Assembly (NCBI RefSeq): GCF_900089605.1
Contig: NZ_LT594324.1
Location: 5,642,001 to 5,706,000, forward strand
Reading direction: 5' to 3'
Origin: Micromonospora narathiwatensis
GTDB lineage: Bacteria; Actinomycetota; Actinomycetes; Mycobacteriales; Micromonosporaceae
Length of the DNA: 64,000 nucleotides
Shown: one piece after another, positions 1 to 47,281 of the stretch
How the letters are laid out: each line of letters starts with the position of its first letter
How positions within the stretch are numbered: position 1 is the stretch's first letter
Position numbers and translations under genes: made by a program
The notes under the pieces: model-generated
Seen by the model: only the letters and a program-made list of their open reading frames with translations
The model's database searches: none
What the model was told of the DNA's origin: nothing

Positions 1-1
1 G

Positions 2-29946: not shown

Positions 29947-30366
29947 CCGCGGCTGAGCGCGCCCTCGGCGGCCGGAGTCGGTGACGACCCGCCGCCGTTC
30001 GAGCCGTCGCGGCGCGTCAGGACTGCCCGGGAGTCACCCGACCATCGCTACCGTCCGTGTCGGCGAACCGCCGCATGGCGGCCCGGGAGATTGATGGTCG
30101 GGAACGGCTGCGCGGCCCCTCGGCCGGGCTGAGTTCCCGGGCGATATATGCCCGCAAACCGCCATCAATCGCTGTCCACTCCCCCTGTTGGAAGTGCCTT
30201 GTATCCGAACGGCGGATGGCTGTGAATCCGCTGTTCACGTTCCGGATGTCCGGCGTAAGCGATTGGCTGCTGACTGAGTCATTGTCCCTCCTGAGCCTGT
30301 CCCCACCAGCCAAATGTGGGCCGGGTCCGGGCGCGGTTTCGTGCCCGGGTCGAGGGAGGGATCAAG
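29947..30366. other. 420-bp intergenic region with inverted repeats
   Basis: No convincing gene. It has nested inverted repeats: GATTGATGG (30089-30097) with CCATCAATC (30162-30170), enclosing CGGGAAC/GTTCCCG and CGGGC/GCCCG arms around the A/T-rich GATATAT. Further down is the first copy of the shared ATGTCYGGCGTAAG motif. A 136-codon open frame across it lacks a good ribosome site and normal codon use. Confidence 0.6.
30233..30265 (+). promoter_or_regulatory. Shared pst-locus motif, copy A (PHO-box-like)
   Basis: Reads GTTCACGTTCC, GGATGTCCGGC, GTAAGCGATTG as three 11-nt units, 101 bp before the GTG of the following gene. TTCAC-N16-GTAAG is identical to copy B. The first unit resembles the PhoP repeat GTTCACC. 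PhoP binding or use as a specialised promoter is inferred. Confidence 0.5.
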
Positions 30367-30876
30367 GTGCAGCGTCCACGCTTCGTGTTCCTCGCCGCGC
30401 CAGCGACACAGGCGCAGGTCGCACCCGAGAGGGAACGCATCCTCTGGATGCTCGTATCGCCCAATAATCGGCAACTCGGCCGAAGCGCCTCCTATCACGA
30501 CGCCTACGCCGACAGTCGCCAGGCGGTCCTCGATCTTCAGCAGAATCTGGATCGCGTTATTCGGCTGGAAAGCCTGGTCGAAATGACCGGACAGTGGATC
30601 TGGCGGCTGAATCTCGACGGCCATGCCGTCGCCGCCTCCAGCCGTTCCTACTTCCGGGCGCGGGAGTGCGCGTACAACCTGGAACGGTTCCTGGAGGCGG
30701 TACCGCAGGCGGACCTCGTCGTCGGCGTCCGCGCTGCCAGACGGGGACGTCAGCGGCCGACAGAAACGGAAGACGTCGCCGCGATCCACCCAACCCGCTC
30801 GCTGGCCACCGGCCTGACGCCATCGTCGTTCGGTGAGGCGTACCGGCCCCGGTTCCGAATGCCGGGTGAGCTGTGA
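30367..30876 (+). CDS. Hypothetical protein with two YegP/DUF1508-like repeats
   Basis: 169 residues from GTG 30367, 4 nt after GAGGGAGGGAT. Two related halves are visible: ERILWMLVSPNNRQLGRSASYHDAYADS (about residues 24-51) and GQWIWRLNLDGHAVAASSRSYFRARECAYNL (about 74-104). Both resemble the YegP/DUF1508 pattern of W-x-W-x-L, then VA-SS-Y, then A-C-x-x-x-L. No signal or membrane segment. The family link is by eye and uncertain. It carries copy A of the motif found before pstC, so it may be a cytoplasmic member of the same regulon. Confidence 0.7.
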   Translation: MQRPRFVFLAAPATQAQVAPERERILWMLVSPNNRQLGRSASYHDAYADSRQAVLDLQQNLDRVIRLESLVEMTGQWIWRLNLDGHAVAASSRSYFRARECAYNLERFLEAVPQADLVVGVRAARRGRQRPTETEDVAAIHPTRSLATGLTPSSFGEAYRPRFRMPGEL

Positions 30877-31201
30877 AAGACCGGCGGCCGGCAATCGGCA
30901 TCGGCCGGTCGACGAAGAGCGCGCGGACGGACGTACCGAAATGGACAGGGCGCGACGAATTGAGCCGCCGACGTGAGTCGGTGACCCGATCGGGACGGCG
31001 GACATCCGGAATTCACCGGTCACATGTCTGGCGTAAGTATTCGCCTGTCCGCGACGTCACCGCTCCCGCCGAGCGTGGGCCGTGCGACGAACGGGGCCGC
31101 GGCACCGGTCGAGTCGGCTCAGGAAAGGTGGCATTCCAGGTGTGCAGCACGGTCAGGCGCGGTCTCGTGCCTGTCACCCGTCATCCCGTGGTGGGCCGCT
31201 G
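30877..31201. other. Intergenic region upstream of pstC
   Basis: 325 bp without a convincing gene; short open frames here have poor codon bias. It contains copy B of the shared motif at 31011-31043 and should carry the pstC promoter. Confidence 0.6.
31011..31043 (+). promoter_or_regulatory. Shared pst-locus motif, copy B (PHO-box-like)
   Basis: Reads ATTCACCGGTC, ACATGTCTGGC, GTAAGTATTCG, 158 bp before pstC. It shares TTCAC-N16-GTAAG with copy A and TCTGGC-n-TAAGT-n-TT with copy D. It is placed to control the pstCA-pstS unit. Confidence 0.55.
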
Positions 31202-32233
31202 ATGGTCACGACAACGATCCCCGGCGCTCCCGCCGGGGAGTCCGCCGACGTACCGCGCCGGACGACGTCCCGGATCGGCCCCTCCGACCATGCCTTCCGT
31301 CTGGTCGCGCGGGCCGGTGGCGCCGCCGTGCTGGTCATCATGTTGCTGGTCGGTGGCTTCCTGCTCTACCGCGGTTGGGCGGCGCTTCAGGTCGCCGGCT
31401 GGTCGTTCTTCACGACCCAGGCGTGGGACCCGGATTCCAACAACTTCGGTGTGGCGGCGCTGCTCGTCGGGACGGTGGCGATCGCCATCGTCGCGGTGTC
31501 CTTCGCGGTGCCGCTCGCCACCGGCACCGCTCTCTACATCTCCGAGTACGCCCCGCGCCGGTTTCAGCGCACGCTCGTCTCGCTGGTGGATCTGATGGCC
31601 GCCGTCCCGAGCGTGGTGTACGGCCTCTTCGGCTTCTATCTGCTCTCGGGCAAGGTCATCTACCTGTCCAAGTGGCTCTCCACCTGGCTCGGCTGGATCC
31701 CCATCTTCCGGGTCGTCGAAGGTGGACAACCGGTGGACCCGCGTGACCCGCTCGCCACGATGTCGGTCTACAGCTCGTCGACGTTCATTGCCGGGATGGT
31801 CGTGGCGATGATGGTCACGCCGATCATGTCCTCGGTGATGCGCGAGGTCTTCTCCCAGGCACCGGTCGGGGAGCGCGAGGGCGCGTACGGCCTGGGTGCC
31901 ACCAAGTGGGGGATGATCCGGACCGTGGTGCTGCCCTTCGGGCGGGGCGGCATGATCGGCGGCACGATGCTCGGTCTGGGCCGAGCCCTCGGGGAGACGA
32001 TCGCCGTTTACATGATCATCACTCCGCTCTTCGAGATCAACTGGCACATCCTCCAGAACGGCGGCATCTCCGTCTCCGCCCTCATCGCCCAGCGCTACAG
32101 CGAGTCCAGCGATTTCGGGCTCTCCGCGCTGATGGCGGCCGGTCTCGCCCTGTTCCTCATGACGCTGGTCATCAACTTCATCGCATCAGCGATCATCGCC
32201 CGAAGCCGATCCGGCGCCGAGAGTGAGGCCTGA
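31202..32233 (+). CDS. pstC: Phosphate-type ABC transporter permease PstC
   Basis: 343 residues from ATG 31202. After a cytoplasmic N-terminus it has about six membrane helices and the permease EAA-type loop REGAYGLGATKWGMIRTVVLP, followed by GLGRALGETIAVYMI. These match PstC. It imports phosphate with PstA and PstB. pstA follows with 4 nt between the pstC stop and the chosen pstA ATG. The DNA-level order pstC-pstA-pstS is unusual, as pstS usually comes first. Confidence 0.92.
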   Translation: MVTTTIPGAPAGESADVPRRTTSRIGPSDHAFRLVARAGGAAVLVIMLLVGGFLLYRGWAALQVAGWSFFTTQAWDPDSNNFGVAALLVGTVAIAIVAVSFAVPLATGTALYISEYAPRRFQRTLVSLVDLMAAVPSVVYGLFGFYLLSGKVIYLSKWLSTWLGWIPIFRVVEGGQPVDPRDPLATMSVYSSSTFIAGMVVAMMVTPIMSSVMREVFSQAPVGEREGAYGLGATKWGMIRTVVLPFGRGGMIGGTMLGLGRALGETIAVYMIITPLFEINWHILQNGGISVSALIAQRYSESSDFGLSALMAAGLALFLMTLVINFIASAIIARSRSGAESEA

Positions 32234-32237
32234 CCCG

Positions 32238-33638
32238 ATGGCCGGATTGACACCCGCTGAGACCTCGACCGCGTACGCCGAAGACGCCGTCGCGCAGCGG
32301 ACAGACGAGGTCGACCCGACTTCACGACGGGCGCGTCACGCCGCGGAACCCGACGACGATGCGGCGCGGCGGCCGACCACCACCATTCCGGCTCCGCCGG
32401 CCGAGTCGGACGTACCCGCGCGGCCGAGGGCGATCGGCGGCACCGGCGAGGGTGGGGCCTTTCCCGTCCTCGCCGCGGCGGCCGCCGCGGTGGGCTTCAC
32501 GGCACTGCTCTTCTACCAGCTCGCGCCGCTCAGCGGCGCCCTCGGGCTCGTCGTCGTCGGCTACCTGAGCTTTCTGGTCTTCTACACGGTGCTCGTCTCG
32601 TACGAGAATCCCGGCCCGGCGGTGCGTGCCAAGGTGGCCTCGGTGATCGTGCCGAGCCTCGGCTTCGTGCTGCTCGCCGCGCTGGTCCTCGTCGTCGGCT
32701 ACGTGCTGATCCGGGGCTGGGAGTCGCTGAAACACCTGAACTTCGTCACCCAGGACATGTCCTTCGCCGGACCACTGGACCCGCTCACGGTGGGCGGGAT
32801 CGTGCACGCGGCGATCGGCACCCTGGAACAGATAGCGATCTGCCTCGCCATCACCATTCCCGCCGGGATCATCTGCGCGGTCTTCCTCAGCGAGTTCCCC
32901 GGTACGTTCAGCCGCTTCGTCCGGACCATCGTCGAGGCGATGACCGCTCTGCCGTCGATCGTCGCCGGCCTCTTCGTCTACCTCTCCTACATTCTCATCT
33001 GGGGCCACTGGGTCGAGACGCACCTTTCGGAGCGCTGGCAGTGGCTCGCGCCGGGCAAGTCCGGCTTCGCCGCGTCGCTGGCGCTGAGCATCATGACCCT
33101 GCCGATCATCGTGCGCGCGGCCGACGTGGTGCTGCGCCTCGTCCCCGGACACCTGCGGGAGGCCTCCTACGCCCTCGGCGCGTCGCACTGGCGCACGGTG
33201 TGGCAGGTGGTCCTGCCGACGGCCCGGTCCGGCCTGGCCACCGCGGTGATCCTCGGCACCGCCCGCGGCATCGGCGAGACGTCCCCGGTTCTGCTCACCG
33301 CGGGCTTCGCGGCCAGCGTCAACCTCAATCCGTTCAGCGGACCGCAGGTCTCCCTGCCGCTGTTCACCTTCGACTCGGTGAAGTCGCCGGAACCGTCGAT
33401 GGTGGCTCGTGGCTTCGGTGCCGGCGCGGCGTTGATGCTGCTCGTCCTGCTGCTCTTCGTCCTGGCGCGGGTGCTCGGTGGCCGCGGTGCCGGCAATCTC
33501 AGCAAGCGTCAACTCCGGCGACGAATGGTCGCCTCCTATCGGGACGCGCGGCGGTTCGCCGAACGCAGCCGCTCGCGCTCCGTCGTACCCGACTCAGCAC
33601 CCGCACCCGGGGGCGACAGTGAGGAACGTCATGTTTAG
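32238..33638 (+). CDS. pstA: Phosphate-type ABC transporter permease PstA
   Basis: 466 residues from ATG 32238; an in-frame GTG at 32223 overlaps pstC. The C-terminal 300 residues are a normal PstA with LREASYALGASHWRTVWQVVLPTA and GIGETSPVLLTAGFA. About 75 extra Ala/Pro/Arg-rich residues and two extra hydrophobic segments precede this core, so it is longer than the usual 280-300 residues. It overlaps the pstS start by 8 nt. Confidence 0.9.
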   Translation: MAGLTPAETSTAYAEDAVAQRTDEVDPTSRRARHAAEPDDDAARRPTTTIPAPPAESDVPARPRAIGGTGEGGAFPVLAAAAAAVGFTALLFYQLAPLSGALGLVVVGYLSFLVFYTVLVSYENPGPAVRAKVASVIVPSLGFVLLAALVLVVGYVLIRGWESLKHLNFVTQDMSFAGPLDPLTVGGIVHAAIGTLEQIAICLAITIPAGIICAVFLSEFPGTFSRFVRTIVEAMTALPSIVAGLFVYLSYILIWGHWVETHLSERWQWLAPGKSGFAASLALSIMTLPIIVRAADVVLRLVPGHLREASYALGASHWRTVWQVVLPTARSGLATAVILGTARGIGETSPVLLTAGFAASVNLNPFSGPQVSLPLFTFDSVKSPEPSMVARGFGAGAALMLLVLLLFVLARVLGGRGAGNLSKRQLRRRMVASYRDARRFAERSRSRSVVPDSAPAPGGDSEERHV

Positions 33639-35349
33639 GAAATTGATGCCGGGTGGCCCGAGCGGGCCACGTCGACTTGCGTCCGCCGCGCTCGCGCTGG
33701 GGATCGCGGGGGCGGTCGTCGTGCTTCCGGGCACGGCCGCCAGCGCCGCCACGTACGTCCCGGTCAGCGGCGCCGGCTCCACCTGGAGCGCGAACGCGCT
33801 GCGCCAGTGGGCGGCCAACGTCAAGAAGAACGGCATGACGATCAACTTCGCCGCCACCGGCTCCACCGATGGACGGACCCAGTTCGCCAACGGCACCGTC
33901 GACTTCGGCGTCTCGGAGATCCCGTACGGGCTGTACGACTCGAACTTCGGTCGGGCGGCCGACCAGCCGCCCGCGCGCAAGTTCGCCTACATGCCGATCG
34001 TGGCCGGCGGCACGTCGTTCATGTACAACCTCAACATCGGCGGGCGGCGGGTCACCAACCTGCGGCTCTCGGGCGAGAACGTCGCGAAGGTCTTCACCGG
34101 CGCCATCAAGTACTGGAACGACCCGGCGATCAAGGCGGACAACCCGTCGCTGACCCTGCCCGCGCGGCGGATCGTTCCCGTGGTCCGCTCCGACGGCTCG
34201 GGCACCACGGCGCAGTTCACGCTCTGGCTGAGCAAGCAGTATCCGGACATCTGGAACGCCTACTGCGCCCGCAACGGCAAGCGCACCCCGTGTGGGCTCA
34301 CGTCGTACTACCCGTACAAGCCCAGTGAGGGGTTCGTCGCCAAGTCCGGCTCGGAGAACGTCTCCGGCTTCGTCCGCCAGCCGCAGGGCGAGGGCGCGAT
34401 CACCTACGTCGAGTACTCGTACCCGGAGAAGGCCGGCTTCCCGGTGGTCAAGTTGCTCAACTCGGCCGGCTACTACGTTGCTCCGACGGCAGAGAACGTC
34501 GCCGTGGCGCTGACCAAGGCCGAGATCGAGGAGCACAACACCGACCCGGCGGTCTACCTGACCCAGAAGCTCGACAACGTCTACCGGAACCCGGACAAGC
34601 GGGCGTATCCCCTGTCCTCGTACTCCTACATCATCGTGCCGGTCGCGGAGGAGTACGGGCTGAAGCAACCCGACAAGGGGTACACGCTCGGGAAGTTCGG
34701 CTACTACCTGCTCTGCGAGGGGCAGAACCAGGCCAAGTCGCTCGGCTACTCGCCGTTGCCGAAGAACCTGGTCGAGGCCGGCCTCAAGCAGGTCGAGCGA
34801 ATCCCCAACATGGCGCGCGAGCCGAACAAGATCGCCAACTGTCGGAACCCCACGTTCTCCGGCGACGGCACGAACACGCTGGCCAACAACGCGCCGTACC
34901 CGCCGGAGTGTGATCGCAAGGGCGGCCCGGCCCAGTGCACCACCGGCACCGGTGGAGCGCCGCAGGACACCCCGTCGAACAACAACGGGGGTTCGACCGG
35001 CGGGAACAACCCCGGTGGCTCGGGCGGACCGAACCCCACGGCCGGGCCGAACGCGACCGCCGGCCCGAACGCCAGTGCCGGGCCGAACGCCGCGCCGAGT
35101 GCCGGGGCGGTTGACCCGCTCACGGGCGACCCGGTCGCCGGTGGCTCCGACCCAGGCGCAGGCGCGGGCACAGGCGGGGATTTCGTCGCCGGCATCCCGG
35201 TCGCCCTCGACGCCGACGGTGGGTGGCGCCTGTCGCACACCCTGATGCTGCTCGCCGGAGTGCTGTTCGTCGGCCTGATGATCGGACCACCGCTACTCGC
35301 CCGGTCGCTGCAGCGCCGTGGCCGCAACAATTCGTGGAGCGGGTCGTGA
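33631..35349 (+). CDS. pstS: PstS-family phosphate-binding protein with C-terminal membrane anchor
   Basis: 572 residues. A signal peptide ends near ASA (residue 40). The phosphate-binding domain covers about 42-420 and has SGAGSTWSANALRQW, FAATGSTDGRTQF and the phosphate-site SDGSGTTAQFT, as well as KYWNDPAIK. A 110-residue Gly/Asn/Pro linker follows and then a membrane helix (LMLLAGVLFVGLMIGPPLL) with an Arg-rich end. Typical actinobacterial PstS is a lipoprotein; here the anchor is at the other end, on a long flexible linker. The stop overlaps the next start by 4 nt (GTGA). Confidence 0.87.
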   Translation: MFRKLMPGGPSGPRRLASAALALGIAGAVVVLPGTAASAATYVPVSGAGSTWSANALRQWAANVKKNGMTINFAATGSTDGRTQFANGTVDFGVSEIPYGLYDSNFGRAADQPPARKFAYMPIVAGGTSFMYNLNIGGRRVTNLRLSGENVAKVFTGAIKYWNDPAIKADNPSLTLPARRIVPVVRSDGSGTTAQFTLWLSKQYPDIWNAYCARNGKRTPCGLTSYYPYKPSEGFVAKSGSENVSGFVRQPQGEGAITYVEYSYPEKAGFPVVKLLNSAGYYVAPTAENVAVALTKAEIEEHNTDPAVYLTQKLDNVYRNPDKRAYPLSSYSYIIVPVAEEYGLKQPDKGYTLGKFGYYLLCEGQNQAKSLGYSPLPKNLVEAGLKQVERIPNMAREPNKIANCRNPTFSGDGTNTLANNAPYPPECDRKGGPAQCTTGTGGAPQDTPSNNNGGSTGGNNPGGSGGPNPTAGPNATAGPNASAGPNAAPSAGAVDPLTGDPVAGGSDPGAGAGTGGDFVAGIPVALDADGGWRLSHTLMLLAGVLFVGLMIGPPLLARSLQRRGRNNSWSGS

Positions 35350-37940
35350 GCCGGGCGATGAGCCATGGCCGACGGCGGGGCGTGGCCGCGGCAGCGGTTC
35401 TCGTCGGGGCGGCCGCGCTGCTGACCGTCGGCCCGCCGGTCTCACCGGCGAGAGCGGTCGACGAGGTGACCGACTCCGCGGTCACGGTCAGCGGGCGCAT
35501 GGGCCAGCTGGGCGACGACTGGAGCGACCTCAAGGTCACCGTCTCCCAGACGAAGAACCTGACCAACCAGTCGGTCACCGTGACCTGGACCGGCGCCCCC
35601 AAGACCAAGTTCTACGCCAAGGATCCCAACGCGAACTACCTGCAGGTCATGCAGTGCTGGGGCCCGGATCCCGACGCGCCCGACTTTCGAGAGACCTGCG
35701 AGTGGGGCGTCGGTCGGTACAAGAAAAACGGTGACAAGACCGAGGTCGAACCCCCCGAGCAGCGTTCTCCGGTGCCGGCGGACCCGTTGGAGGACGGGCT
35801 GCTCCGGACGGGCGCGAGGCTCATCCCGTTCCGGTCCGCGCTGGACGGCTCTCGAACTCCGGATGGCAGCCCGGAAGACCCGTTCCCCGCCGAAGGACTG
35901 CCGCCGGACAGCCCGCTGAAGCCGGCCGAGGTGCTCTCGAACTACTTTGGCATTTACACCAGCAACGAGATTCCTTTTGCCGTGACGACCGGTGACGGTT
36001 CCGGTCGGGCGGTCTTCGAGGTTCGTAACGCGGTCCGCGACCCGCACCTGGGCTGCGGCGTCCGCACGGGCGGCGCCAGCGGCGCTCCCCGCCGATGCTG
36101 GCTGGTCATCGTCCCCCGCGGCGAGCGAGAGGTCGACGGGACGCACCAGGAGATCGTTACGTACCGGGGGGCGCTCACGCCGTCGATCTTCGCCGACCGG
36201 CTGGTCGTGCCGTTGGACTTCACCCCGGTGGACGCCGGGTGCCCCCTGGACCGGGAGGAACGGGGGACGGTCGGCACGGAGATGATCGCCGAGGCCGTGC
36301 TCGCCTGGCAGCCCGCGCTCTGCGCCAACAACGGGCCGGTCTTCGCCTATTCGACGACGGGCGACGAGGAGGCGGTGCGGCAGGTGCTGGACGCGTCGAA
36401 CGACGGTCCGGGCCTGGCCTTCACCTCCGATCCGGTGGTTCCCGAGGAGGGGCAGCCGCCCGTCGTGCAGACACCGGTCGCCGTCTCCTCGGTGGTCATC
36501 GCGTTCAACATCGACCTCCGCCTCGCGGGCACCGTGCCGCCGGAGATGGAGCCGCTACGCCGCACCCTGGTACGCAACCTCAAGCTCACTCCCCGGCTGC
36601 TCGCGAAGCTGCTCACCCAGTCGTACGTCCGGGACGTGCCGGACGGGAACCAGAAGAACTATGTGGCGGACAACCCGCGAAGTCTCGGGGTGGACCCGGA
36701 GTTTCTGGCGCTGAACCCGGACTTTGCCTACATCGACAACGGGTTCGCTCCCGACGGCATCGTCGTCCCGTACGGCAATTTTGCGGCGGCCCGCGAGGTG
36801 TGGCGGTGGGTCCTCGCCGATCCGTCGGCGCGTGACTGGCTGAACGGCAAGCCTGACGGGCTCGGTGGTGGGCCCCACGGCAAGGGCATGGAGGTCAACC
36901 CGAACTACCGGTTCGTGTCCGCCGGTGCCCAGGACTACTTCCCGCGTACGGACCCTTCCTGCATCAATCCGGAGGAGCGGCCGGATCTGGAGGAGTGGCA
37001 GCAGGAACCGTCGCCGGGCCGGTGCACACTCGACCTTTTCCCGTACGCGCCGAGCCTCGGCGAGTCCGCGTACCAGACGCTGCGCGCCGACACCAAGCAG
37101 GCATCCAACTGGCAGCCGTCCTTTGACCGGAGCATTCCTGGCAAGTACGGCAAGGAGCCACCCAAGCAGGTGGGTCAGCGTTTCGCACTCTCCATCACCG
37201 ACTCGGCGTCGGCCGCCCGCTACGGTCTCCACACCGCGCAGCTCTGCAAGGCGGTGACCGACGCCGACGGCAACATGGCCGCCTCGGACTGCCGCACCGC
37301 CGACACGACGGGCATGCTCGCCGGAGCCGACGCGATGGTGCCGAGCAAGGTGCCCGGGGTCCGCACGATCGACCCACTGCGTGCGGTCGCCACTCCGAAG
37401 GCGTACCCGCTGACCATGGTCACCTACGCGGCGGCCACTCTCGGTGCGCCCGCCGAGGCGCGGCGCGACTACGCGTCGCTGCTGCGGTACGTCGCCGGCA
37501 ACGGACAGCAGCCGGGACAGCAGCCCGGCCAGTTGCCGGAGGGCTACGCGCCGCTGCCGCAGGCGATGCGGGCACAGACGTTGACCGTCGCGGACACGCT
37601 TGAGCGCTACCAGCCGCCGTCGCCGTCGCCCACGCCGACTCCGAATCAGCCCCCGGCGACCACCGCCCCCGCGGCGAGCGAGGCACCAACGTCGACCCCT
37701 ACTGACACGGCCTCTGAAGTACCGAATCAGGGCGTCCCCCCGACCCCGGCACCCCCGGCCCCCTCGCAGTCGCCTCCCGTGGGCAAGCCGATCGCGCAAC
37801 TGACTCCCGGCAGCCCACTGGGCCAGGTCCGCTGGGTCGTCGTGGCCCTACTCGTGGTCGGAGTGCTGGGCGGCATGGCCGGGCCGGTTCTCCTGATGGT
37901 GTCCCGACGCCTTCGATCGAACTCCGGCGGGCCGGCATGA
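35346..37940 (+). CDS. Large secreted, C-terminally anchored PstS-like protein
   Basis: 864 residues from GTG 35346 (ATG 35358 is an alternative). It has a signal peptide to about residue 37, a long extracellular part with several Cys pairs, a Pro/Ser/Thr linker (about 740-815), and a final membrane helix (VVVALLVVGVLGGMAGPVLLMV). Distant PstS-like stretches are visible: GLAFTSDPV, then TPVAVSSVVIAFNIDLRL, then LKLTPRLLAKLLTQSY, which mirror the hinge and helix region of PstS. I infer a diverged binding protein with large insertions. Coupled to pstS by overlap. Confidence 0.75.
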   Translation: MSRAMSHGRRRGVAAAAVLVGAAALLTVGPPVSPARAVDEVTDSAVTVSGRMGQLGDDWSDLKVTVSQTKNLTNQSVTVTWTGAPKTKFYAKDPNANYLQVMQCWGPDPDAPDFRETCEWGVGRYKKNGDKTEVEPPEQRSPVPADPLEDGLLRTGARLIPFRSALDGSRTPDGSPEDPFPAEGLPPDSPLKPAEVLSNYFGIYTSNEIPFAVTTGDGSGRAVFEVRNAVRDPHLGCGVRTGGASGAPRRCWLVIVPRGEREVDGTHQEIVTYRGALTPSIFADRLVVPLDFTPVDAGCPLDREERGTVGTEMIAEAVLAWQPALCANNGPVFAYSTTGDEEAVRQVLDASNDGPGLAFTSDPVVPEEGQPPVVQTPVAVSSVVIAFNIDLRLAGTVPPEMEPLRRTLVRNLKLTPRLLAKLLTQSYVRDVPDGNQKNYVADNPRSLGVDPEFLALNPDFAYIDNGFAPDGIVVPYGNFAAAREVWRWVLADPSARDWLNGKPDGLGGGPHGKGMEVNPNYRFVSAGAQDYFPRTDPSCINPEERPDLEEWQQEPSPGRCTLDLFPYAPSLGESAYQTLRADTKQASNWQPSFDRSIPGKYGKEPPKQVGQRFALSITDSASAARYGLHTAQLCKAVTDADGNMAASDCRTADTTGMLAGADAMVPSKVPGVRTIDPLRAVATPKAYPLTMVTYAAATLGAPAEARRDYASLLRYVAGNGQQPGQQPGQLPEGYAPLPQAMRAQTLTVADTLERYQPPSPSPTPTPNQPPATTAPAASEAPTSTPTDTASEVPNQGVPPTPAPPAPSQSPPVGKPIAQLTPGSPLGQVRWVVVALLVVGVLGGMAGPVLLMVSRRLRSNSGGPA

Positions 37941-39390: not shown

Positions 39391-40257
39391 ATGAGAACGC
39401 GGGAATGGCCAGCCAGGCGCGTACGCGCCGGGGCGGCGGCCGGGCTGAGCCTGGTGTTGGCCGGCGGCGTCTCCGCCGTCAGCGCCGCGCCGGCGCTTGC
39501 CGCGCCGCTCGGCACCGTCGCCATCTCGTCGCAGAGCGGCGACGTCACGAGCAACCCGATCTTCGCCAAGGCGACCACCTCGGCCCCGTGCCCCGCCGGC
39601 TACGGGGAGAACGCGTCGCTGCGGGTCGGCCCGCCGAACGGACCGTTCACCAACCTCGCCAAGCCGCTCACCGACGGCGGCTACGACAAGGCGAAGGTGA
39701 CCTTCTCCCCCAACCGCTCCTACCAGCTGGCGCTCGGAAGCAACCCGGCCGACGGTGTCTGGTGGATCGTCGTCGAATGCTTCAGCGCCACTGCGGGTCG
39801 CCACCCGGAGCGGTTCGTCACGCCGATCACCGTCTCCGGCACCGGCTGGCGGGTCGGGGCGTCAGGGCAGCCGGCGCAGCCCGGGTCGCCGGATGAGTCG
39901 GCCACTCAGACGCCCACGCCCTCCGCGTCGCCGACGGCCACCGTCGACCCGACCCCGGCCGGCTCGGCAGAACCGAATCCCGCGACGTCGATGGCCGAGC
40001 CCACCCCCGCCGCCCACCGCCTGCCGGCGAGTGGAGCCAGCCTCGTCATCGCCGCCATCGTCACCGGCGGGGTCCTGCTCGCCGGCTCCCTGGTCAGCCT
40101 GCTCGTCGTACGCCGCCGTCGAGTGGCACCGGCGCTGCCGAAGGTGGCGTGGCCCGAGGAGTCGGTGACCGAGCCGCCGACCGAGCCGCCCTCCGACAGC
40201 GCGAAGACCGCAAGTTCCAGCAGTCGTACCACTACGCCGACGGCGAAAAGGAAGTAG
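39391..40257 (+). CDS. Surface protein: novel N-terminal domain plus LPASG-type anchor
   Basis: 288 residues. Signal peptide to about residue 37, then a 120-residue domain shared with the genes at 40261 and 44314: LGTVAISSQSGDVTSNPIF, CPAGYGENASLRVGP, GPFTNL, NPADGVWWIVVECFS. Two invariant Cys probably form a disulfide. A Pro/Thr/Ser linker leads to LPASG (residues 211-215), a hydrophobic helix and an RRRR stop, then a 45-residue tail. That tail is long for a sortase signal, so plain membrane anchoring is also possible. The domain is not one I know. Confidence 0.78.
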   Translation: MRTREWPARRVRAGAAAGLSLVLAGGVSAVSAAPALAAPLGTVAISSQSGDVTSNPIFAKATTSAPCPAGYGENASLRVGPPNGPFTNLAKPLTDGGYDKAKVTFSPNRSYQLALGSNPADGVWWIVVECFSATAGRHPERFVTPITVSGTGWRVGASGQPAQPGSPDESATQTPTPSASPTATVDPTPAGSAEPNPATSMAEPTPAAHRLPASGASLVIAAIVTGGVLLAGSLVSLLVVRRRRVAPALPKVAWPEESVTEPPTEPPSDSAKTASSSSRTTTPTAKRK

Positions 40258-40260
40258 TCG

Positions 40261-42123
40261 ATGTCCCTGTCTGTCTCCCGGCGTGGCCGGATCGCTGCTG
40301 CACTCTCGGCGGCCACACTTCTCGGCGGCATGCTCGTGGGGCTGGTCGCCACGCCCGCTTACGCCGCCGACCTGGGCACCGTCAACCTCTCGCAGTCCCG
40401 TGGCACCGTCACCGCAAATCCGATGTTCGAGACCGCGATCACCTCCAAGCCGTGTCCGAAGCCGTACGGCGAGGAGGCCGCGCTCCGGATCGGTCCGGGC
40501 GTGCCGACGGGCCCGTTCACCAACCTGACCCCGTCGCTGGGCGGCGGCGGGTACGACGAGGCCCCGGTGACGGCCAACCCGAACCGGTCGATGCAGACCG
40601 CGCTCGGGGAGAAGCCGGCCGACGGCACCTACTGGGTGGTGGTCGAGTGCTTCAGCCTGCTGGCGGGCCGGAACCCCGATCGGTTCGTCACCCCGATCAA
40701 GGTCACCGGCGAGAACTGGGAGGTGGTGAGCTCGAACACGCAGACCACCACCACGCTCGCCGTCAGCCCGGCCGATTCGGCCGTGCAGGGCAGTGCGGTG
40801 ACCCTGACCGCAACGATCGACCCGCCCGCGGCGACCGGCTCGATCCAGTTCCGCGACGGGGAAACGGCGCTCGGCGCTCCGGTCACCGTCTCCGGCGGCA
40901 CTGCCACGCTCACCACCCGCGACCTGTCGGTGGGCCTGCGTGCCCTGAGCGCGGTCTTCAATCCGACCGGCAACTTCGACGCGTCGATCTCATCGGCGGC
41001 GTCGTATCGGATCACCGCTCCCGGGGCTCAGGACGTCACGATCGAGCTTGAGGCGACCCCGGCCAGCCCGCAGCCGCAGAAGACCCCCGTCACGCTGACC
41101 GCGAGGGTGACTCCGGCGACCACCGGACACGTCCAGTTCCGCAGGGGCACGGATCCCATCGCCTCGATCGAGGTCAGTGCTGATGGCACGGCCACCACGA
41201 CGGTGAACACCGCGAGCGCGCCGCTGCTGGTCGGGGCGCACACCTTTACCGCCGAGTTCATTCCGACGAACCCGGACGAGTTCAACGGCGCACAGTCCGC
41301 ACCGGTCCAGTACGAGATCACCGGGGACGGCGTCGCGCAGACCACCACGAAGCTCGAGGTGTCGCCGGCCGGTCCGAAGCCGCAGGGTACGGCCGTCACG
41401 CTCACCGCGACCGTGCAGCCGGCCGCGGCGGCGGGCAAGGTGCAGTTCAACGACGGGAGCACCGCACTGGGCGAGGCCGTCACCGTCCAGAACGGCACCG
41501 CGACCACGACCGTCACGACCCTTCCCGTCGGCGTTCACTCGCTCACCGCGGTATTCACGCCGAGCGACGCGACTCAGTTCAGCAACTCGACCTCCCAGAC
41601 CGTCCAGTACGAGATCACCGCGCCGGCCACCGACAGCGATCTGACGGTGACCGACGAGGACGGCAAGAAGCTCGGCGCGAACCCGACGTTGTACCCGGGG
41701 CAGACCGTGCAGATCGAGGCCCGAGGGTTCACCGGCGACGAGCCGGTCGTGCTGCAACTCGACGGCACCACGGTGCAAACCGTGCCGGCTGAGAACGGCG
41801 TGGTCGGACTGACCTTCACGCTGGGCGAAGACAGCCGGGTCGGGGCGCATCAACTCGTGTTCTCCGGCACCGCCCACACGGTGACCTTCGACTTCACCGT
41901 CGCCGCCAAGGACGACGACCCGGCCGATGGCGACGACAACAACAGCGACGGTGACGGCGGCAACGGCGGTACTGGCGGCGGCAGCCTGCCGAAGACGGGT
42001 GTCGACGTCGTGACGATGCTCGGGGCCGGCCTGATGCTGGTCGGCGGCGGTGCGGGTGTGCTGGTGATGACCCGGCGGCGGCCACGGTTCGCGCCGGTGA
42101 TCTGGCCGGACGAGCAGCGGTAG
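40261..42123 (+). CDS. LPKTG surface protein with novel N-domain and Ig-like repeats
   Basis: 620 residues from ATG 40261, 3 nt after the previous stop. It has a signal peptide (to about residue 36), then the shared N-domain (37-155) with PCPKPYGEEAALRIGP and VVECFSLLAG. Three bacterial Ig-like repeats of about 95 residues follow, each starting TTT.L.VSPA...QGTAVTLTATV, then a fourth beta-rich module. An Asp/Gly linker ends in LPKTG (576-580), a membrane helix and RRRPR. This is a standard sortase substrate layout. The repeats should act as a stalk that carries the N-domain off the surface. Confidence 0.87.
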   Translation: MSLSVSRRGRIAAALSAATLLGGMLVGLVATPAYAADLGTVNLSQSRGTVTANPMFETAITSKPCPKPYGEEAALRIGPGVPTGPFTNLTPSLGGGGYDEAPVTANPNRSMQTALGEKPADGTYWVVVECFSLLAGRNPDRFVTPIKVTGENWEVVSSNTQTTTTLAVSPADSAVQGSAVTLTATIDPPAATGSIQFRDGETALGAPVTVSGGTATLTTRDLSVGLRALSAVFNPTGNFDASISSAASYRITAPGAQDVTIELEATPASPQPQKTPVTLTARVTPATTGHVQFRRGTDPIASIEVSADGTATTTVNTASAPLLVGAHTFTAEFIPTNPDEFNGAQSAPVQYEITGDGVAQTTTKLEVSPAGPKPQGTAVTLTATVQPAAAAGKVQFNDGSTALGEAVTVQNGTATTTVTTLPVGVHSLTAVFTPSDATQFSNSTSQTVQYEITAPATDSDLTVTDEDGKKLGANPTLYPGQTVQIEARGFTGDEPVVLQLDGTTVQTVPAENGVVGLTFTLGEDSRVGAHQLVFSGTAHTVTFDFTVAAKDDDPADGDDNNSDGDGGNGGTGGGSLPKTGVDVVTMLGAGLMLVGGGAGVLVMTRRRPRFAPVIWPDEQR

Positions 42124-42178: not shown

Positions 42179-43168
42179 ATGACGGTGACGACAAGTCGCC
42201 CGCCGGCGGCACCGCCGCCGGCCCCGGCAGCGACCGCGCCGGCGCCGCCCCCGGCGGCGGCGAGCCGCCCGCTGCCCGCGGTGACGGCGAGCCCTCCGGA
42301 GTCGGGTGCTTCGAGCCCCGCACACCTGGCGTTTCACCTCTCCGGGGCCGGGCTCACGATCCTCGCCGTCGTGCTGCTCGCCTTCGTCGCCCACCTCACG
42401 GTCGTCTCCCAACTGCGCTACGCGCGGTCTCAGCAGACGGCGTACGCCGACTTCCGCTACGAACTGGCCAACGCCACCGCGCCGGTCGGTCAGACCGACG
42501 AGAACGGGAAGCTGGTGCCGCCCGGGAGCGCCGTCGCCGTGCTGCGGATCCCGGCCATCGACCTGCGGACCGTCGTCTTCGAGGGGACCCGGGGCGACGT
42601 GCTGGAGTCGGGCCCTGGGCACCGCCGTGACACCGTGCTGCCCGGCCAGGCGGGCACGAGCATCGTCATGGGCCGCAAGTTCCTCTACGGCGGACCCTTC
42701 GGCGCGCTCGACGTCCTGACGACGGGCGACGAGATCACCGCGATCACCGGGCAGGGCGAGCACAAGTACCGCGTCATCGCCCTGCGCCGGGCGGGCGAGG
42801 AGGCGCCGCCACCGTCGGAGACGGCACCCGGTCGACTGGTTTTGATCACCGCGGACGGGCCGGTCTACGCACCGGAGGACCTGCTCTACGTCTACGCCGA
42901 ACTGACCTCGGACGCGCAACCCGCGGCACGCCGCGCGTTCGGCGCCGCGTCACTGCCGGCCAGCGAGCGACCGATGGCGGCCGACCAGAACGCCTGGATG
43001 TCCGTCGTGCTCTGGGGCCAGGCCCTGCTGCTCGCCGTGGCGGCGGTGACCTGGGTCCGGGTCCGGCGCGGGCGTTGGCCGGCCTGGATCGTCGGCCTAC
43101 CGGTCTGCGGTGCGCTCGGCCTCACGCTCGCCGACCAGGTCGCCCGCCTACTGCCCAACCTGATGTGA
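42179..43168 (+). CDS. Sortase-fold membrane protein lacking the catalytic triad
   Basis: 329 residues. A Pro/Ala-rich cytoplasmic start, one membrane helix (about 55-75), an extracellular sortase-like domain (about 110-245) and two C-terminal helices. Sortase landmarks are present: LRIPAIDLRTVVFEGT, GPGHRRDTVLPGQAG, YGGPFGALDVLTTGDEI. However, the usual AGHR is MGRK (Arg 166 in place of His), the usual TLTTC is VLITA (Ala 225 in place of Cys), and no Arg lies in the following strand (EDLLYVYAEL). It should be inactive as a transpeptidase. It sits between a sortase substrate and pstB in one operon. Confidence 0.82.
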   Translation: MTVTTSRPPAAPPPAPAATAPAPPPAAASRPLPAVTASPPESGASSPAHLAFHLSGAGLTILAVVLLAFVAHLTVVSQLRYARSQQTAYADFRYELANATAPVGQTDENGKLVPPGSAVAVLRIPAIDLRTVVFEGTRGDVLESGPGHRRDTVLPGQAGTSIVMGRKFLYGGPFGALDVLTTGDEITAITGQGEHKYRVIALRRAGEEAPPPSETAPGRLVLITADGPVYAPEDLLYVYAELTSDAQPAARRAFGAASLPASERPMAADQNAWMSVVLWGQALLLAVAAVTWVRVRRGRWPAWIVGLPVCGALGLTLADQVARLLPNLM

Positions 43169-43193
43169 ACAACGTGGAAGCTGTGAGGACAAG

Positions 43194-44171
43194 GTGACGC
43201 ACCCGATCGACGACATCGTGGCTCGGCGGGATGCCGCGCAGGACCCGCCCGCCGGGACACCGCTGGGCGGGGAGACACCGACCCTGGTGGACATCCCGCA
43301 GGCCGAGCTGGCCGCCCCCCACCGAGCCGGCGACGGCCTGGCCAGCACCGAGGTGATGCACCGGGGGAGTGCGCGGGTGGGGGCCGCGACGGACTCGCTC
43401 GCGATGCTGGAGGCCCGCTCAATCTCGGCCTGGTTCGGTGACCGCAAGGTGCTCGACCGGGTCTCCCTGACGATGCCGGCCGGCCAGGTGACCGCGCTCA
43501 TCGGGCCGTCCGGCTGCGGTAAGTCCACCTTCCTGCGGATTCTCAACCGGATGCACGAGTTGGTGCCCAGTGCCGCGCTCGCCGGCGAGGTGTTGCTGGA
43601 CGGGCGGGACATCTACGACTCCTCGCGCCGGGTCACCGACGCGCGCCGGCAAATCGGCATGGTTTTCCAGAAGCCCAACCCGTTTCCGGCGATGTCCATC
43701 TACGACAACGTCATTTCCGGGCTGCGGCTGACCGGGATCCGCGCGGGCCGGCGGGAACTGGACGACCTGGTCGAGGAATGCCTGATAAAGGCGGGTCTCT
43801 GGAAGGAGGTCCGCGACCGGTTGCGCCAACCGGGCGGAGCGCTCTCCGGTGGACAGCAACAGCGCCTGTGCATCGCCCGATCGCTCGCCGTACGCCCCCG
43901 GGTGCTGCTCATGGACGAACCCTGTTCGGCCCTGGACCCCACCTCGACGCGGCGGATCGAGGAGACGATTGCGGAACTGGTCACCGAGGTGACCATTGTC
44001 ATCGTCACCCACAACATGCAGCAGGCGGCGCGCGTATCCGACGAGTGCGCTTTCTTTCTCGCCAGCCAGGGCACGCCGGGATCGATTGTCGAGTACGGGC
44101 CGACGTCCGCCATGTTCGAAAACCCGCAGGATTCCCGGACGTACGACTACGTGCATGGGCGGTTCGGCTGA
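43194..44171 (+). CDS. pstB: Phosphate-type ABC transporter ATP-binding protein PstB
   Basis: 325 residues from GTG 43194. Walker A GPSGCGKST, Q-loop VFQKPNPFP, signature LSGGQQQR, Walker B VLLMDEPCSALDP and H-loop THNMQQ are all PstB-like; the QKPNPFP stretch is diagnostic. About 70 residues precede the usual start and have no known domain. ATG 43404 would give a normal-length protein but lies far from the upstream gene. It is separated from pstCA by 9.5 kb of surface-protein genes. Confidence 0.9.
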   Translation: MTHPIDDIVARRDAAQDPPAGTPLGGETPTLVDIPQAELAAPHRAGDGLASTEVMHRGSARVGAATDSLAMLEARSISAWFGDRKVLDRVSLTMPAGQVTALIGPSGCGKSTFLRILNRMHELVPSAALAGEVLLDGRDIYDSSRRVTDARRQIGMVFQKPNPFPAMSIYDNVISGLRLTGIRAGRRELDDLVEECLIKAGLWKEVRDRLRQPGGALSGGQQQRLCIARSLAVRPRVLLMDEPCSALDPTSTRRIEETIAELVTEVTIVIVTHNMQQAARVSDECAFFLASQGTPGSIVEYGPTSAMFENPQDSRTYDYVHGRFG

Positions 44172-44187
44172 TGCCACCGCACCCAGA

Positions 44188-44220
44188 GTTTCCCTTTCGC
44201 ATGTCCGGCGTAGGGATTGA
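44188..44220 (+). promoter_or_regulatory. Shared pst-locus motif, copy C (PHO-box-like)
   Basis: Reads GTTTCCCTTTC, GCATGTCCGGC, GTAGGGATTGA, 93 bp before the next start. ATGTCCGGCGTA is identical to copy A over 12 bases. Confidence 0.5.
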
Positions 44221-44313
44221 ACTGCCGTCAACGTCACAGCAGATCGAAAACCTAATCGTCGGCCGGCTCATCTGATCCGGTCCGTCACCACCCTCAATGA
44301 GAGGAAGTGATCC

Positions 44314-45510
44314 ATGAGTAAGCGTCTGCTTGCTCGTGCGGCCGCCCTGACGACGGGTGCCGCCCTTGCAGCCGGTGCGCTCGTGGCGGTCGCCTCCCCG
44401 GCGCTCGCCGCGCCGCTCGGCACCGTCAACCTGTCGAAGACCAGCGGCCTGGTCACCGACAACCCGATGTTCGGAACCGCCACCACCTCCGCGCCGTGCC
44501 CGGCGACGTACGGCGAGGAGGCCGCGCTGCGGATCGGTCCGGCGGAGACCGGGCCGTTCACCAACCTCACCCCGTCGCTCGGTGGCGGTGGGTACGACCA
44601 GGCGCCGGTGGTGGCCAACCCGAACCGGTCCTTCCAGACCGCGCTCGGCTCGGCGCCGGCCAACGGCCGTTGGTGGATCGTCGTGGAGTGCTTCAGCCTG
44701 CTCAACGGCCGGCACCCCGACCGGTTCGTGACGGAGATCGTGGTCAGCGGCAACCAGTGGAAGGTGCCGGTGGTCGAGGCCACCACCACCAGCCTCGCCG
44801 TCACCCCGGCCGGCCCGGTCGCGGCCGGCACCCCGGTGACCCTCACCGCGACGGTGGCCCCGAGCGGTGCCGCCGGCACGGTCGAGTTCCTCCGCGGCAC
44901 CAACTCGCTCGGCACCGCCGCCGTCAGCGGTGGCGCCGCCACCCTGACCACCAGCACCATCCCCGCGGGCTCCTGGTCGCTGACCGCCCGGTTCACGCCG
45001 GCCGACCCCAGCTCGTTCGGGGCGTCGACGTCCTCCGCCGTCTCGCTCGCCGTCAGCGGCCCGGCCGGTGGCGTCAGCAAGGCCCAGACCATCACCGCCG
45101 ACGTCGACCCGGGTGCCTTCACGCTGGACATCGCGCAGCCTCCGTCGGTCGCGCTGGCCGGCGGCCAGGTTGGCGGCACCGCCACCGGTGCGCTCAAGCA
45201 GGCCACCGTCACCGACCTGCGGGGCACCAACGTCGGCTGGGACGTGACCGGTCAGCTGACCGACTTCACCGGTGCCGGCAACATCCCGGCCGGGAACCTC
45301 AGCTGGACCCCGTCGGCCGCCAAGGCCAGCGGCTCCGGCGCGGTCACCGCGGGCACCGCGGCGAACCTGGGCGACACCCGTACGCTCTGCACCTCGGCCG
45401 CGGGCAGCAGCGCCGGCAAGTTCACCTGCGACGCCGGTCTGAGCCTGTCGATCCCGGACAGCGTCCCGCCGGGCGCCTACACCGCCACCCTCACGCTGAC
45501 CCTGGCCTGA
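44314..45510 (+). CDS. Secreted protein: novel N-domain, Ig-like domain, WxL-like C-domain
   Basis: 398 residues from ATG 44314. Signal peptide to about residue 33, then the shared N-domain (TSAPCPATYGEEAALRIGP, VVECFSLLNGRHPDRF), one Ig-like module (about 158-250), and a C-terminal region (255-398). That region resembles WxL domains of Firmicutes: ITADVDPGAFTLDI at its start, GWDVTGQLTDF in the middle, and PGAYTATLTLTLA at the very end. The second Trp of the WxL signature is replaced. WxL domains bind peptidoglycan non-covalently. No anchor follows. The DUF916 gene downstream supports this reading. Confidence 0.78.
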   Translation: MSKRLLARAAALTTGAALAAGALVAVASPALAAPLGTVNLSKTSGLVTDNPMFGTATTSAPCPATYGEEAALRIGPAETGPFTNLTPSLGGGGYDQAPVVANPNRSFQTALGSAPANGRWWIVVECFSLLNGRHPDRFVTEIVVSGNQWKVPVVEATTTSLAVTPAGPVAAGTPVTLTATVAPSGAAGTVEFLRGTNSLGTAAVSGGAATLTTSTIPAGSWSLTARFTPADPSSFGASTSSAVSLAVSGPAGGVSKAQTITADVDPGAFTLDIAQPPSVALAGGQVGGTATGALKQATVTDLRGTNVGWDVTGQLTDFTGAGNIPAGNLSWTPSAAKASGSGAVTAGTAANLGDTRTLCTSAAGSSAGKFTCDAGLSLSIPDSVPPGAYTATLTLTLA

Positions 45511-45546
45511 CCAGAGCGTCGGTGACCAACGGGTGACAACAGCGCA

Positions 45547-45587
45547 AGCGGATGTACCGCGGACAGCCGGTCCGTGGTGCATCCGCT
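45547..45587 (+). terminator. 18-bp stem-loop after the WxL-like gene
   Basis: Arms GCGGATGTACCGCGGAC and GTCCGTGGTGCATCCGC (plus one outer A-T pair) pair fully with two G-U pairs around AGCCG. It starts 36 nt after the stop and ends 36 nt before the DUF916 start. It may attenuate or stabilise rather than terminate, because the next gene is on the same strand. Confidence 0.6.
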
Positions 45588-45623
45588 GCGTGTCCTATCC
45601 GGAACCCCTCTCGGAGTCGTACC

Positions 45624-46748
45624 ATGCGCCATCGTGATCTCTTCCGTACCGGGGTCGTGCTGCTGGCCGTCGTAGCCCTCACCCTTCCCGGCGTCGCCGC
45701 TCCGGCCGTCGCCGGACCGGGTGCGGCGCGCGCCGCCGCGGCGCGGCCTGTCGCGTTCCAGCCGTCGGCCACGCTCACGGCGCGCGAAGAACCCCGTTGG
45801 AGCGTGCAGCCGTCGAGCCGGAAGGGGCCGACCGGCAAGAACCACTTCGTGTACGACCTCTCGCCCGGCGAGCAGATCATCGACTACGTCGGCATCAGCA
45901 ACCTCGGCAAGGAACCGCTCACGCTCGACACCTATGCCACCGACGCGTTCAACACCGAGGACGGTGCCTTCGCCCTCCTCCCCACCGGCCAGGATCCCCG
46001 GGGCGTCGGCGCCTGGATCAGGTTGCCGCAGCGGTCGTACACGGTCGCGCCGGGGAAACGGCTGGACGTGCCGTTCACGCTGCAGGTTCCGGCGAACGCC
46101 GAGCCGGGAGACCACCCCGGAGCCGTGGTTACCGCGATGTCGGTGACGGCGACCGGCAAGGAAGGGCAGCAGGTGACCATCGAGCGGCGCATCGGCGCCC
46201 GGGTCTACCTGCGGGTCAGCGGGCCGGTGGAGCCCTCCGTGCAGATCACCGGGATGGAGCTGCGGTACGACAATCCGGTCGTCCCGTTCCCCGGTGGAGA
46301 TCTGACCGTCACCTATCGGGTGGCGAACCTCGGCAACGTCCGGGTCGCCGGCAAGGCGCGGATCCAGGTCAAGGGCCCACTCGGCATCCGGCTCGGCCAC
46401 AGCGAGATGATCGACATTCCGGAGTTGCTCCCTGACTCCGAGGTCAGGCTCACCAGCACGATTCACGGCGTCTTCCCGGCCGGTCCGATCTCCGCCTCCC
46501 TGGCGGTCAACCCGGAGACCGTGGACAAGAAGGAGGCGGTACCGACCGCCAGACGGGCGGCCTCGACATCGGCGGCGCCCTGGGGGTTGCTGATCTTCCT
46601 TGGTGTCCTGGTCGCGGCCGTGGTCCTGGTGTTCGTCCTGAGACGGCGGCGTCGCCGGCTGCTGGCGGAGATCGCTGGCGGCGACGGAGGTGTTCCGGAC
46701 CCGGCGGGCGGAGACCCGACGCCGCTGGCCGCCGGACGACCGGCGTGA
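45624..46748 (+). CDS. DUF916 (WxL-interacting) membrane protein
   Basis: 374 residues from ATG 45624. Signal peptide to about residue 40, then a DUF916/WxLIP-like domain (about 50-185): WSVQPSS, FVYDLSPGEQIIDYVGISNLGKEPLTLDTYATDAF, AVVTAMSV. A second beta-rich domain follows (190-310, position of DUF3324), then a membrane helix (about 321-340) and RRRRRR. In Firmicutes such proteins are encoded with WxL proteins and LPxTG proteins and bind WxL partners at the wall. The same trio occurs here (44314, 45624, 46850). Confidence 0.85.
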   Translation: MRHRDLFRTGVVLLAVVALTLPGVAAPAVAGPGAARAAAARPVAFQPSATLTAREEPRWSVQPSSRKGPTGKNHFVYDLSPGEQIIDYVGISNLGKEPLTLDTYATDAFNTEDGAFALLPTGQDPRGVGAWIRLPQRSYTVAPGKRLDVPFTLQVPANAEPGDHPGAVVTAMSVTATGKEGQQVTIERRIGARVYLRVSGPVEPSVQITGMELRYDNPVVPFPGGDLTVTYRVANLGNVRVAGKARIQVKGPLGIRLGHSEMIDIPELLPDSEVRLTSTIHGVFPAGPISASLAVNPETVDKKEAVPTARRAASTSAAPWGLLIFLGVLVAAVVLVFVLRRRRRRLLAEIAGGDGGVPDPAGGDPTPLAAGRPA

Positions 46749-46849
46749 GCGGATAGATCGTTGCCGCCGGAGGCGGTCGACCGCCACGCGGGAGCTCCCC
46801 TGGCGCCGTCGCGCCGCAGTTGTCACCCAGGATTGAGAGAGACGTTGTG

Positions 46850-47281
46850 ATGAGTAGGACCCGGATCTGCCGTCGCCCGGCGGCGGTCGCCTCGGTGGCC
46901 GGCGTGATGATCGCTCTCTGGGCGACGGGCGCCCGGGCCGCAGTCGATCGGCCGCCGAACGCGGCTGCGGCGACCGTGGTCGCGATGACGTCCACGTCAC
47001 AGCCGGGTCCATCGTCGCAGGGTCAGGGAGGCGAGCAGGGAGGGAGCATGCAGATCACCGTCTCGATCGCCCCCAGGCCGACCCCCTCGGGCACGACCGG
47101 CCCGACCGCCTCGCCCACGGCGACGGGCGCCCCGTCGCCCACCCGGACGTCGCCCGGGGGCACCTTGCCGCGTACGGGTGTCGCGATCGGTGCCCTGGTG
47201 ATCGCCGGAACGGCACTGGTCGGCGGCGGCGCCGTACTGCGGATGTCGGCGCGGCGGCGACGGGACCTCCGGTCTCGCTGA
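46850..47281 (+). CDS. Small LPRTG surface protein
   Basis: 143 residues from ATG 46850 (GTG 46847 is in frame). A signal peptide (to about residue 31), a short Ser/Thr/Pro/Gly-rich stalk, then LPRTG (106-110), a membrane helix and RRRRR. This is a minimal sortase substrate. WxL operons in Firmicutes commonly carry a small LPxTG protein of this kind. Confidence 0.82.
   Translation: MSRTRICRRPAAVASVAGVMIALWATGARAAVDRPPNAAAATVVAMTSTSQPGPSSQGQGGEQGGSMQITVSIAPRPTPSGTTGPTASPTATGAPSPTRTSPGGTLPRTGVAIGALVIAGTALVGGGAVLRMSARRRRDLRSR

Follow-up and report, generated by a model that had tools for sequence, protein, structure and literature searches.

The analysed window is a 64,000-nucleotide stretch of the genome of the soil actinomycete Micromonospora narathiwatensis (C1:5642001-5706000 of a 6.61-Mb single contig). 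It contains a cassette (30233-47281, all genes on the + strand) in which the four genes of a Pst-type phosphate transporter are interleaved with genes for two further PstS-type binding proteins, a sortase-like protein and a set of WxL, DUF916 and LPxTG surface proteins. Our sequence comparisons support the reading that the pst, sortase-like and binding-protein genes form one conserved unit, in which the sortase-like protein is, judged by its residues, a catalytically dead pseudoenzyme (hereafter, the pseudosortase). As far as the literature search reaches, this conserved bacterial gene set is undescribed: a full-text search, with subscription journals mostly outside its coverage, returned no description of such a pst/sortase-like/WxL locus.

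Conservation of the core genes

We compared 86 loci, comprising the window, six loci from a genome search and 79 from a scan of genome contigs for relatives. The scan kept the best 80 of 183 loci ranked by similarity to the query, many of them from Streptomyces; L057, on the same contig as L037, was omitted. By profiles trained on those same loci, the pseudosortase is accompanied by pstB in 85 loci, a large PstS-fold protein in 73, a tethered PstS in 64, pstA in 56 and pstC in 44, and a secreted PstS-like protein is present in 75. Where both genes of a pair are present, pstC precedes pstA in 44 of 44 loci, pstA precedes pstS in 55 of 56 and pstS precedes the large-protein gene in 63 of 64, and pstB follows the pseudosortase gene within 300 bp in 77 of the 86. 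All six core genes occur in 44 of the 86 loci, and these carry the secreted PstS-like protein (44), a WxL/Ig-type protein (35) and DUF916 (11). For 37 of the 42 loci without the full core, at most 1,500 bases of DNA are available upstream of the first recognised core gene. Of the remaining five, L037 continues on a second contig (L183); L074, L079 and L124 have 2.3-3.2 kb of upstream DNA left, a region that holds surface genes in other loci; and L125 is weighed below.

Outside the family but within the order, close homologues were found in G033, G025 (two), G040 and G029, and the loci around them contain pstC, pstA, a tethered PstS, the large protein and pstB; the G040 locus is split between the two ends of one contig, and the L042 piece lacks pstB, which is found at the opposite end of the same contig (L156). 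By the same profiles, 14 control loci around other sortases contain no pstC, pstA, PstS or large protein and show two weak matches to ATP-binding cassette (ABC) proteins, both in L047; control locus L049 is 3,457 bases long.

A second, independent sample of 396 genomes from the phylum was searched with profiles of the large protein, the pseudosortase and DUF916. The large-protein profile matches in 27 genomes; in 7 the match spans the full length (E 1e-136 or better), and in the other 20 it is partial, at E 1e-26 to 1e-10. The six full-length loci outside this genome all have pstC, pstA, tethered PstS and pseudosortase, and five have pstB; locus L145 starts 105 bases before the pseudosortase frame. 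Among four partial-match loci that were read, L151-L153 carry a divergent core and L155 is an ordinary pst locus. The pseudosortase profile scores at least 250 bits in exactly the 7 full-length large-protein genomes, at neighbouring places; below 250 bits its list runs via L151-L153 into ordinary sortases, and 202 of the 396 genomes match at E 1e-15. Wherever the surroundings of a close pseudosortase or a full-length large protein were read, pst genes adjoin it. An accident of one genome was rejected in view of the recurrence of the core in many loci and in this independent sample.

Two observations concern copy number and surroundings. The system is present twice in G025, as divergent copies (L039 and L040) separated by about 90 kb. 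On the contig of L038 (G033:C41), a further pstS-like gene (19202-19999) stands close to the system, and a pstB with a canonical score (C41:22654) is found about 20 kb from the system.

Organization of the cassette

Subunit identity was judged by NCBIfam equivalog and Pfam cut-offs. An earlier note, made from the letters of the window, had placed pstC, pstA, an anchored pstS and pstB in one locus, and all four score above their equivalog cut-offs in the order it gave. The parts, all on the + strand, are as follows.

30229..30274 (+): private candidate regulatory element, copy 1, core ATGTCCGGCGTAAG at 30246-30259; 5′ of the YegP-like gene; 21.4 bits
30367..30876 (+): small protein, 169 aa, YegP-like; recurs with the system; no match in a Pfam search
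31007..31052 (+): private element, copy 2, core 31024-31037; 5′ of pstC; 26.7 bits
31202..32233 (+): pstC permease; TIGR02138 248.1 bits, cut-off 196.45
32223..33638 (+): pstA permease; TIGR00974 201.3 bits, cut-off 193.45
33631..35349 (+): PstS with C-terminal transmembrane tether; TIGR00975 214.6, cut-off 205; hydrophobic stretch 534-561
35358..37940 (+): large PstS-fold protein with N-terminal domain at residues 38-299 and C-terminal hydrophobic helix; by profile and structure comparison
38139..39275 (+): secreted PstS-like protein (PBP_like_2); PF12849 32.7 bits, cut-off 27
39391..40257 (+): surface protein, shared head, LPASG and transmembrane segment; hydrophobic stretch 211-241; anchor profile below cut-off
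40261..42123 (+): surface protein, shared head, three Ig-like domains, LPKTG; Big_3_5 in three stretches
42179..43168 (+): pseudosortase, hydrophobic segments at both ends; PF04203 47.4 bits, cut-off 26.6
43194..44171 (+): pstB ATPase; TIGR00972 346 bits, cut-off 343.2
44184..44229 (+): private element, copy 3, core 44201-44214; 5′ of the WxL-like gene
44314..45510 (+): WxL-like surface protein, shared head, one Ig-like domain, degenerate WxL domain; PF13731 17.4 bits, cut-off 25
45624..46748 (+): DUF916/WxL-interacting protein, C-terminal hydrophobic helix; PF06030 28.2 bits, cut-off 27.3
46850..47281 (+): small LPRTG protein; sorting signal LPRTG; Gram_pos_anchor below cut-off

The first gene encodes a small protein that we take to resemble YegP/DUF1508; its homologues occur in 17 of 96 system locus entries versus 0 of 16 control loci. 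Close downstream of the cassette, a C39-type peptidase (48883-50448, -) and an M14 carboxypeptidase (50382-51743, +) lie in divergent orientation; their frames overlap in the list of open reading frames.

The cassette limits coincide with an empty site in relatives. We traced the upstream gene (28777-29940) downstream in ten members of the genus, nine without the system and one, G005, with it. In the nine, the gene at window position 47396 follows as the next one recognised, with a relative of the small gene between the two in L178; the gap measures 29-51 bases in seven members, 759 in L176 and 989 in L178. G005 has the small gene, pstC, pstA and pstS at the corresponding site, and it alone among 24 same-genus relatives has a close homologue of the sortase-like protein (77%), the others having none or a weak one (E 5e-10 or worse). 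L178 (G013:C1:4626500-4642000) holds at 1717-2706 an open relative of the small gene, 63% identical, and no other cassette gene; this lone gene is either the remnant of a lost cassette or a seed, the first gene to be present.

A sortase fold without catalytic residues

The earlier note's sortase-like protein does carry a sortase domain by PF04203, and the note missed that the catalytic His and Cys are absent. In the catalytic His column, 85 of the 86 loci have Arg and one has Lys, and Cys stands at neither candidate column in any of them; both residues are present in 13 of 13 control sortases. The 120 database proteins listed out of 1443, partly the same genes, all show Arg there and lack the Cys; in nine additional loci, L151-L153 among them, the catalytic columns show Arg or Lys, again with no Cys. 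An active sortase was rejected because both residues are absent in all members checked. Those listed database proteins that bear a name all go by 'class E sortase', 'sortase', 'LPXTG-site transpeptidase (sortase) family protein', 'sortase A' or similar, labels that their residues contradict, and the window protein scores below the class E NCBIfam cut-off (68.9 versus 160).

Eleven outside relatives (L163-L169 and L172-L175), hand-picked from among the next-best profile matches, do contain His and Cys, spread over two open frames in L174. The DNA fetched for these eleven (5,365 bases for L166) contains no pstC, pstA, PstS or large protein. Catalytic loss and membership of a pst locus coincide without exception in the examined set. 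The outside relatives, active-looking sortases, share a similar hydrophobic C-terminal tail, and 7 of the 11 have as a neighbour, on the other strand, an ABC ATPase frame with a weak likeness to PstB (40-53 bits).

Pst subunits and PstS-type proteins

The window permeases retain stretches of their E. coli counterparts in our alignments: GRALGET in PstC (against 9k3s_B) and AR..GET in PstA. The tethered PstS, whose N-terminal region lacks cysteine, seems to retain most phosphate-contact columns. Using what we take to be the E. coli PstS contact numbering (Arg135, Thr10, Phe11, Asp56 and Ser139), we find among 66 rows that the Arg135 column is Arg in 61 of 64 ungapped cases and the Thr10 column Thr or Ser in 63 of 63. 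PstB also sets the system apart: in a tree, 93 system PstBs split from ten other PstBs, two of which (L154 and L155) were read as canonical pst loci, with support of 1.0 for the split and 0.90 on the corresponding branch after rerooting.

Both of the extra binding proteins named in the earlier note are PstS-type, the first (35358-37940) through profile and structure comparison (VIA-align; the rows barely cover residues 1-298), with no match in Pfam or NCBIfam. This large protein seems to have lost the phosphate contacts, as alignments read by eye suggest. The second belongs to a family whose consensus retains GSDTT and GSGTR and shows DFaRSS around Asp56, which adds an Arg; hydrophobicity reveals no C-terminal anchor in the window protein.

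Surface proteins and a private element

Three surface proteins (39391, 40261 and 44314) have a common head domain, 52-67% identical, on three different anchors; the 39391 protein and the WxL-like protein reach 67% over 124 aa of the head. The earlier note's LPxTG proteins are borne out by the LPKTG and LPRTG signals, with the Pfam anchor profile below cut-off, and its DUF916 protein by a PF06030 score just above cut-off. Its WxL-like protein stands as a weak likeness: PF13731 falls short of its cut-off and the C-terminus lacks the second W-x-L motif. Among 37 family rows, some of them Ig-type without a WxL domain, PF13731 matches at E<=0.01 in 15, the first W-x-L is present in 9 and the C-terminal one in 1, and PF06030 matches at E<=0.01 in 22 of 25 DUF916 rows. 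Because Ig-type proteins are picked up by our 'WxL' profile as well, the count of 69 of the 86 loci is an upper bound.

The best evidence that WxL/DUF916 and pst genes form one regulon here is a short private sequence element. Exact copies of the 14-mer ATGTCYGGCGTARG occur just three times in the 6.6-Mb genome, each time within the cassette (30246, 31024 and 44201), and three more genome places are one base off. Since the motif was chosen in the window, its informative properties are rarity elsewhere and conservation. A weight matrix built from seven sites 5′ of WxL-type genes (one from the window and six from L037, L059, L060, L061 and L080) gives 26.7 and 21.4 bits at the other two window sites and 2.5 at the next-best window place; a site in L058, outside the training set, scores 56.8. 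A related element thus lies upstream of the WxL-type gene in L037, L058, L059, L060, L061 and L080. In G005 the WxL copy is exact and the small-gene and pstC copies (L183) have one mismatch each. No high-scoring element precedes pstC in L058, L059, L060, L061 or L080, some of which have little upstream DNA, and the nine empty-site stretches hold a single match with at most one mismatch, in L185 and distant from the site. A known RNA element at the conserved sites was rejected, as 28000-50000 contains no Rfam match at gathering score. No sigma-70-type promoter was found in 29900-47400, an uninformative result because shuffled sequences yield 0.5.

Proposed working and alternatives

Our proposal is a second, dedicated importer of the Pst type, encoded by the cassette and acting at the cell surface. 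PstCAB would form the ATP-driven channel, with the tethered PstS as the receptor handing over the ligand, which is most likely inorganic phosphate. We envisage PstS surrounded by a fixed extracellular assembly of the large PstS-fold protein, the secreted PstS-like protein with its altered pocket and the membrane-anchored pseudosortase. The pseudosortase and the large protein may serve as non-catalytic docking subunits that keep the binding proteins beside the channel. In some species the docked partners may also include wall-bound WxL/DUF916/LPxTG proteins, so that ligand caught in the wall would be handed inward to the channel. We infer, with a modest leaning in its favour, that the three parts hold jointly: the assembly imports phosphate, the pseudosortase docks partners and the wall proteins feed the channel. 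More tentatively, the cassette may represent an undescribed ABC importer complex of Actinomycetota, with a catalysis-free sortase fold and a PstS fold free of a phosphate site docked to it and wall proteins passing ligand to it directly.

Several observations weigh against this proposal and give the alternatives their footing. The first touches the unit itself: in L125 (Planotetraspora thailandica), the 9.8 kb 5′ of the pseudosortase holds PstS-like, WxL-type and DUF916 genes, and the available DNA (positions 1-10000) contains no pstC, pstA, PstS or large protein, so that this locus is either a real exception or a longer module. The surface genes are a second weak point. DUF916 occurs in 37 of the 86 loci and LPxTG/LAxTG-type signals, by pattern search, in 29; with substrates and DUF916 this patchy, coupling through surface proteins is not universal, and the WxL/DUF916 module is optional. 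The earlier note had pointed to the neighbourhoods of DUF916, and these speak against a general tie to pst. With at most three candidates scored per genome, the profile matches 66 of the 396 genomes, and 16 of the 19 places with E<1e-60, one of them in this genome, lie outside pst loci by coordinates, the other three lying in system loci. Pairs of WxL and DUF916 genes without pst occur in this genome (L170, G000:C1:5914000-5932000, 6599-9786) and in G012 (L171). Such figures, like the 11 DUF916 genes among the 44 full-core loci, would suit an account in which the core alone, that is pst, PstS-type proteins and pseudosortase, is the system, and the WxL/DUF916/LPxTG proteins are unrelated surface cargo that gathers there. 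We regard it as a serious contender, if an unlikely one: in this genome and in G005 alike, copies of the private element stand 5′ of pstC and of the WxL-like gene, this genome having no exact match elsewhere, and DUF916 or WxL-type genes flank the core in many genera. Of the combined system in the earlier note, then, the conserved pst/sortase-like/binding-protein unit stands and the private element ties WxL/DUF916 to it here, whereas most of the strong DUF916 places in the 396 genomes lie outside pst loci.

The nature of the ligand is less settled by the contact residues than their overall retention suggests. The tethered PstS has Trp at the Phe11 column in 63 of 63 cases, and at the Asp56 column it has Glu in 55 of 64 and Asp in 9, so that affinity or specificity may differ, and the PstS proteins of L039, L040 and L042 have His at the Arg135 column and Ala at the Ser139 column. 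Moreover, the genome has a canonical pstSCAB elsewhere (L154), whose PstB scores 379.9 bits versus 346.6 for the cassette copy, which would make a phosphate role of the cassette partly redundant. The same architecture might therefore handle, in place of free phosphate, some phosphorylated compound or a different oxyanion, such as a phosphate ester, a wall-polymer fragment or a piece of polyphosphate, with the three PstS-type proteins differing in ligand; the extra Arg of the secreted family and the seeming lack of phosphate contacts in the large protein would fit this too. We consider it rather improbable, as PstS, PstC, PstA and PstB all exceed phosphate equivalog cut-offs and most contact columns are retained.

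Regulation offers little help to the phosphate reading, or to the phosphate response that the earlier note inferred. The cassette has no phoU, the genome's single copy lying at 4.85 Mb. Scored against a PHO-box consensus, the best PhoP-type repeat upstream of the cassette pstC reaches 9.1, a value attained by 25% of 40 shuffles; upstream of the canonical pst locus the score is 12.1, attained by 0 of 40. Among 29 system upstreams, those of L063, L116, L122, L123 and L126 have scores reached by 0 of 40 shuffles and those of L068 and L078 by one. Simple membership of the PhoP regulon was rejected for the cassette, the window pstC repeat being no better than chance; in other species, given the upstreams that exceed their shuffles, such membership may hold. 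A PHO box comprises two 11-nt repeat units in the account of PMC7866108.

Pst complexes are also known to signal. The locus could thus sense instead of transporting, with the Pst complex, pseudosortase and surface proteins acting as a sensor of phosphate or wall stress; a Pst complex additional to the canonical one, a catalysis-free sortase and a PstS fold seemingly without a site would fit such a signalling assembly. To this we give a small chance, for no kinase, response regulator or PhoU was recognised among the cassette genes, the permease GET stretches are retained and PstB exceeds its cut-off. That an ordinary sortase/LPxTG locus with an active sortase received pst genes by accidental insertion is barely credible, for all the PF04203 score and the public names 'sortase' and 'class E sortase', given that both catalytic residues are absent in 86 of 86 loci and pstB is present in 85.

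Should the import proposal be true, the fixed pairing of a pseudosortase family with a phosphate-type importer would put the sortase fold to a new use, and the system would offer a testable case of thick-walled bacteria bringing a wall-trapped nutrient to a membrane transporter. Diagnostic features for finding it are a PstS with GSTW...SEIPY, a sortase with Arg for His and Ala for Cys, and the large PstS-fold protein.

Comparison with known systems

The cassette touches three known themes and departs from each. Like PstSCAB, it has four subunits above their cut-offs, with the GET stretches retained and, the Phe11 and Asp56 columns aside, most PstS contact columns seemingly kept. Unlike PstSCAB, its PstS sits on a C-terminal hydrophobic helix, its genes are interleaved with others, it includes two extra PstS-type proteins and a pseudosortase, and it has neither phoU nor, before the window operon, a PHO-box-like repeat. 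The word 'sortase' is absent from the main text of PMC7866108, and both 'sortase' and 'phosphate' are absent from the main text of the WxL paper PMC10599100.

With class E and class D sortases (PF04203, NF033747 and NF033746), the pseudosortase has in common a sortase domain above the Pfam cut-off and a similar hydrophobic C-terminal tail, whereas its family has Arg or Lys in place of His and no Cys in all members checked, and pstB in 85 of 86 loci. Finally, the adjacency of DUF916, WxL-like and LPxTG proteins recalls the WxL/DUF916 (WxLIP)/LPxTG clusters of Firmicutes; in contrast to those clusters, the WxL domain of the cassette is degenerate and below cut-off, the module is optional, and here it is tied to a Pst importer.

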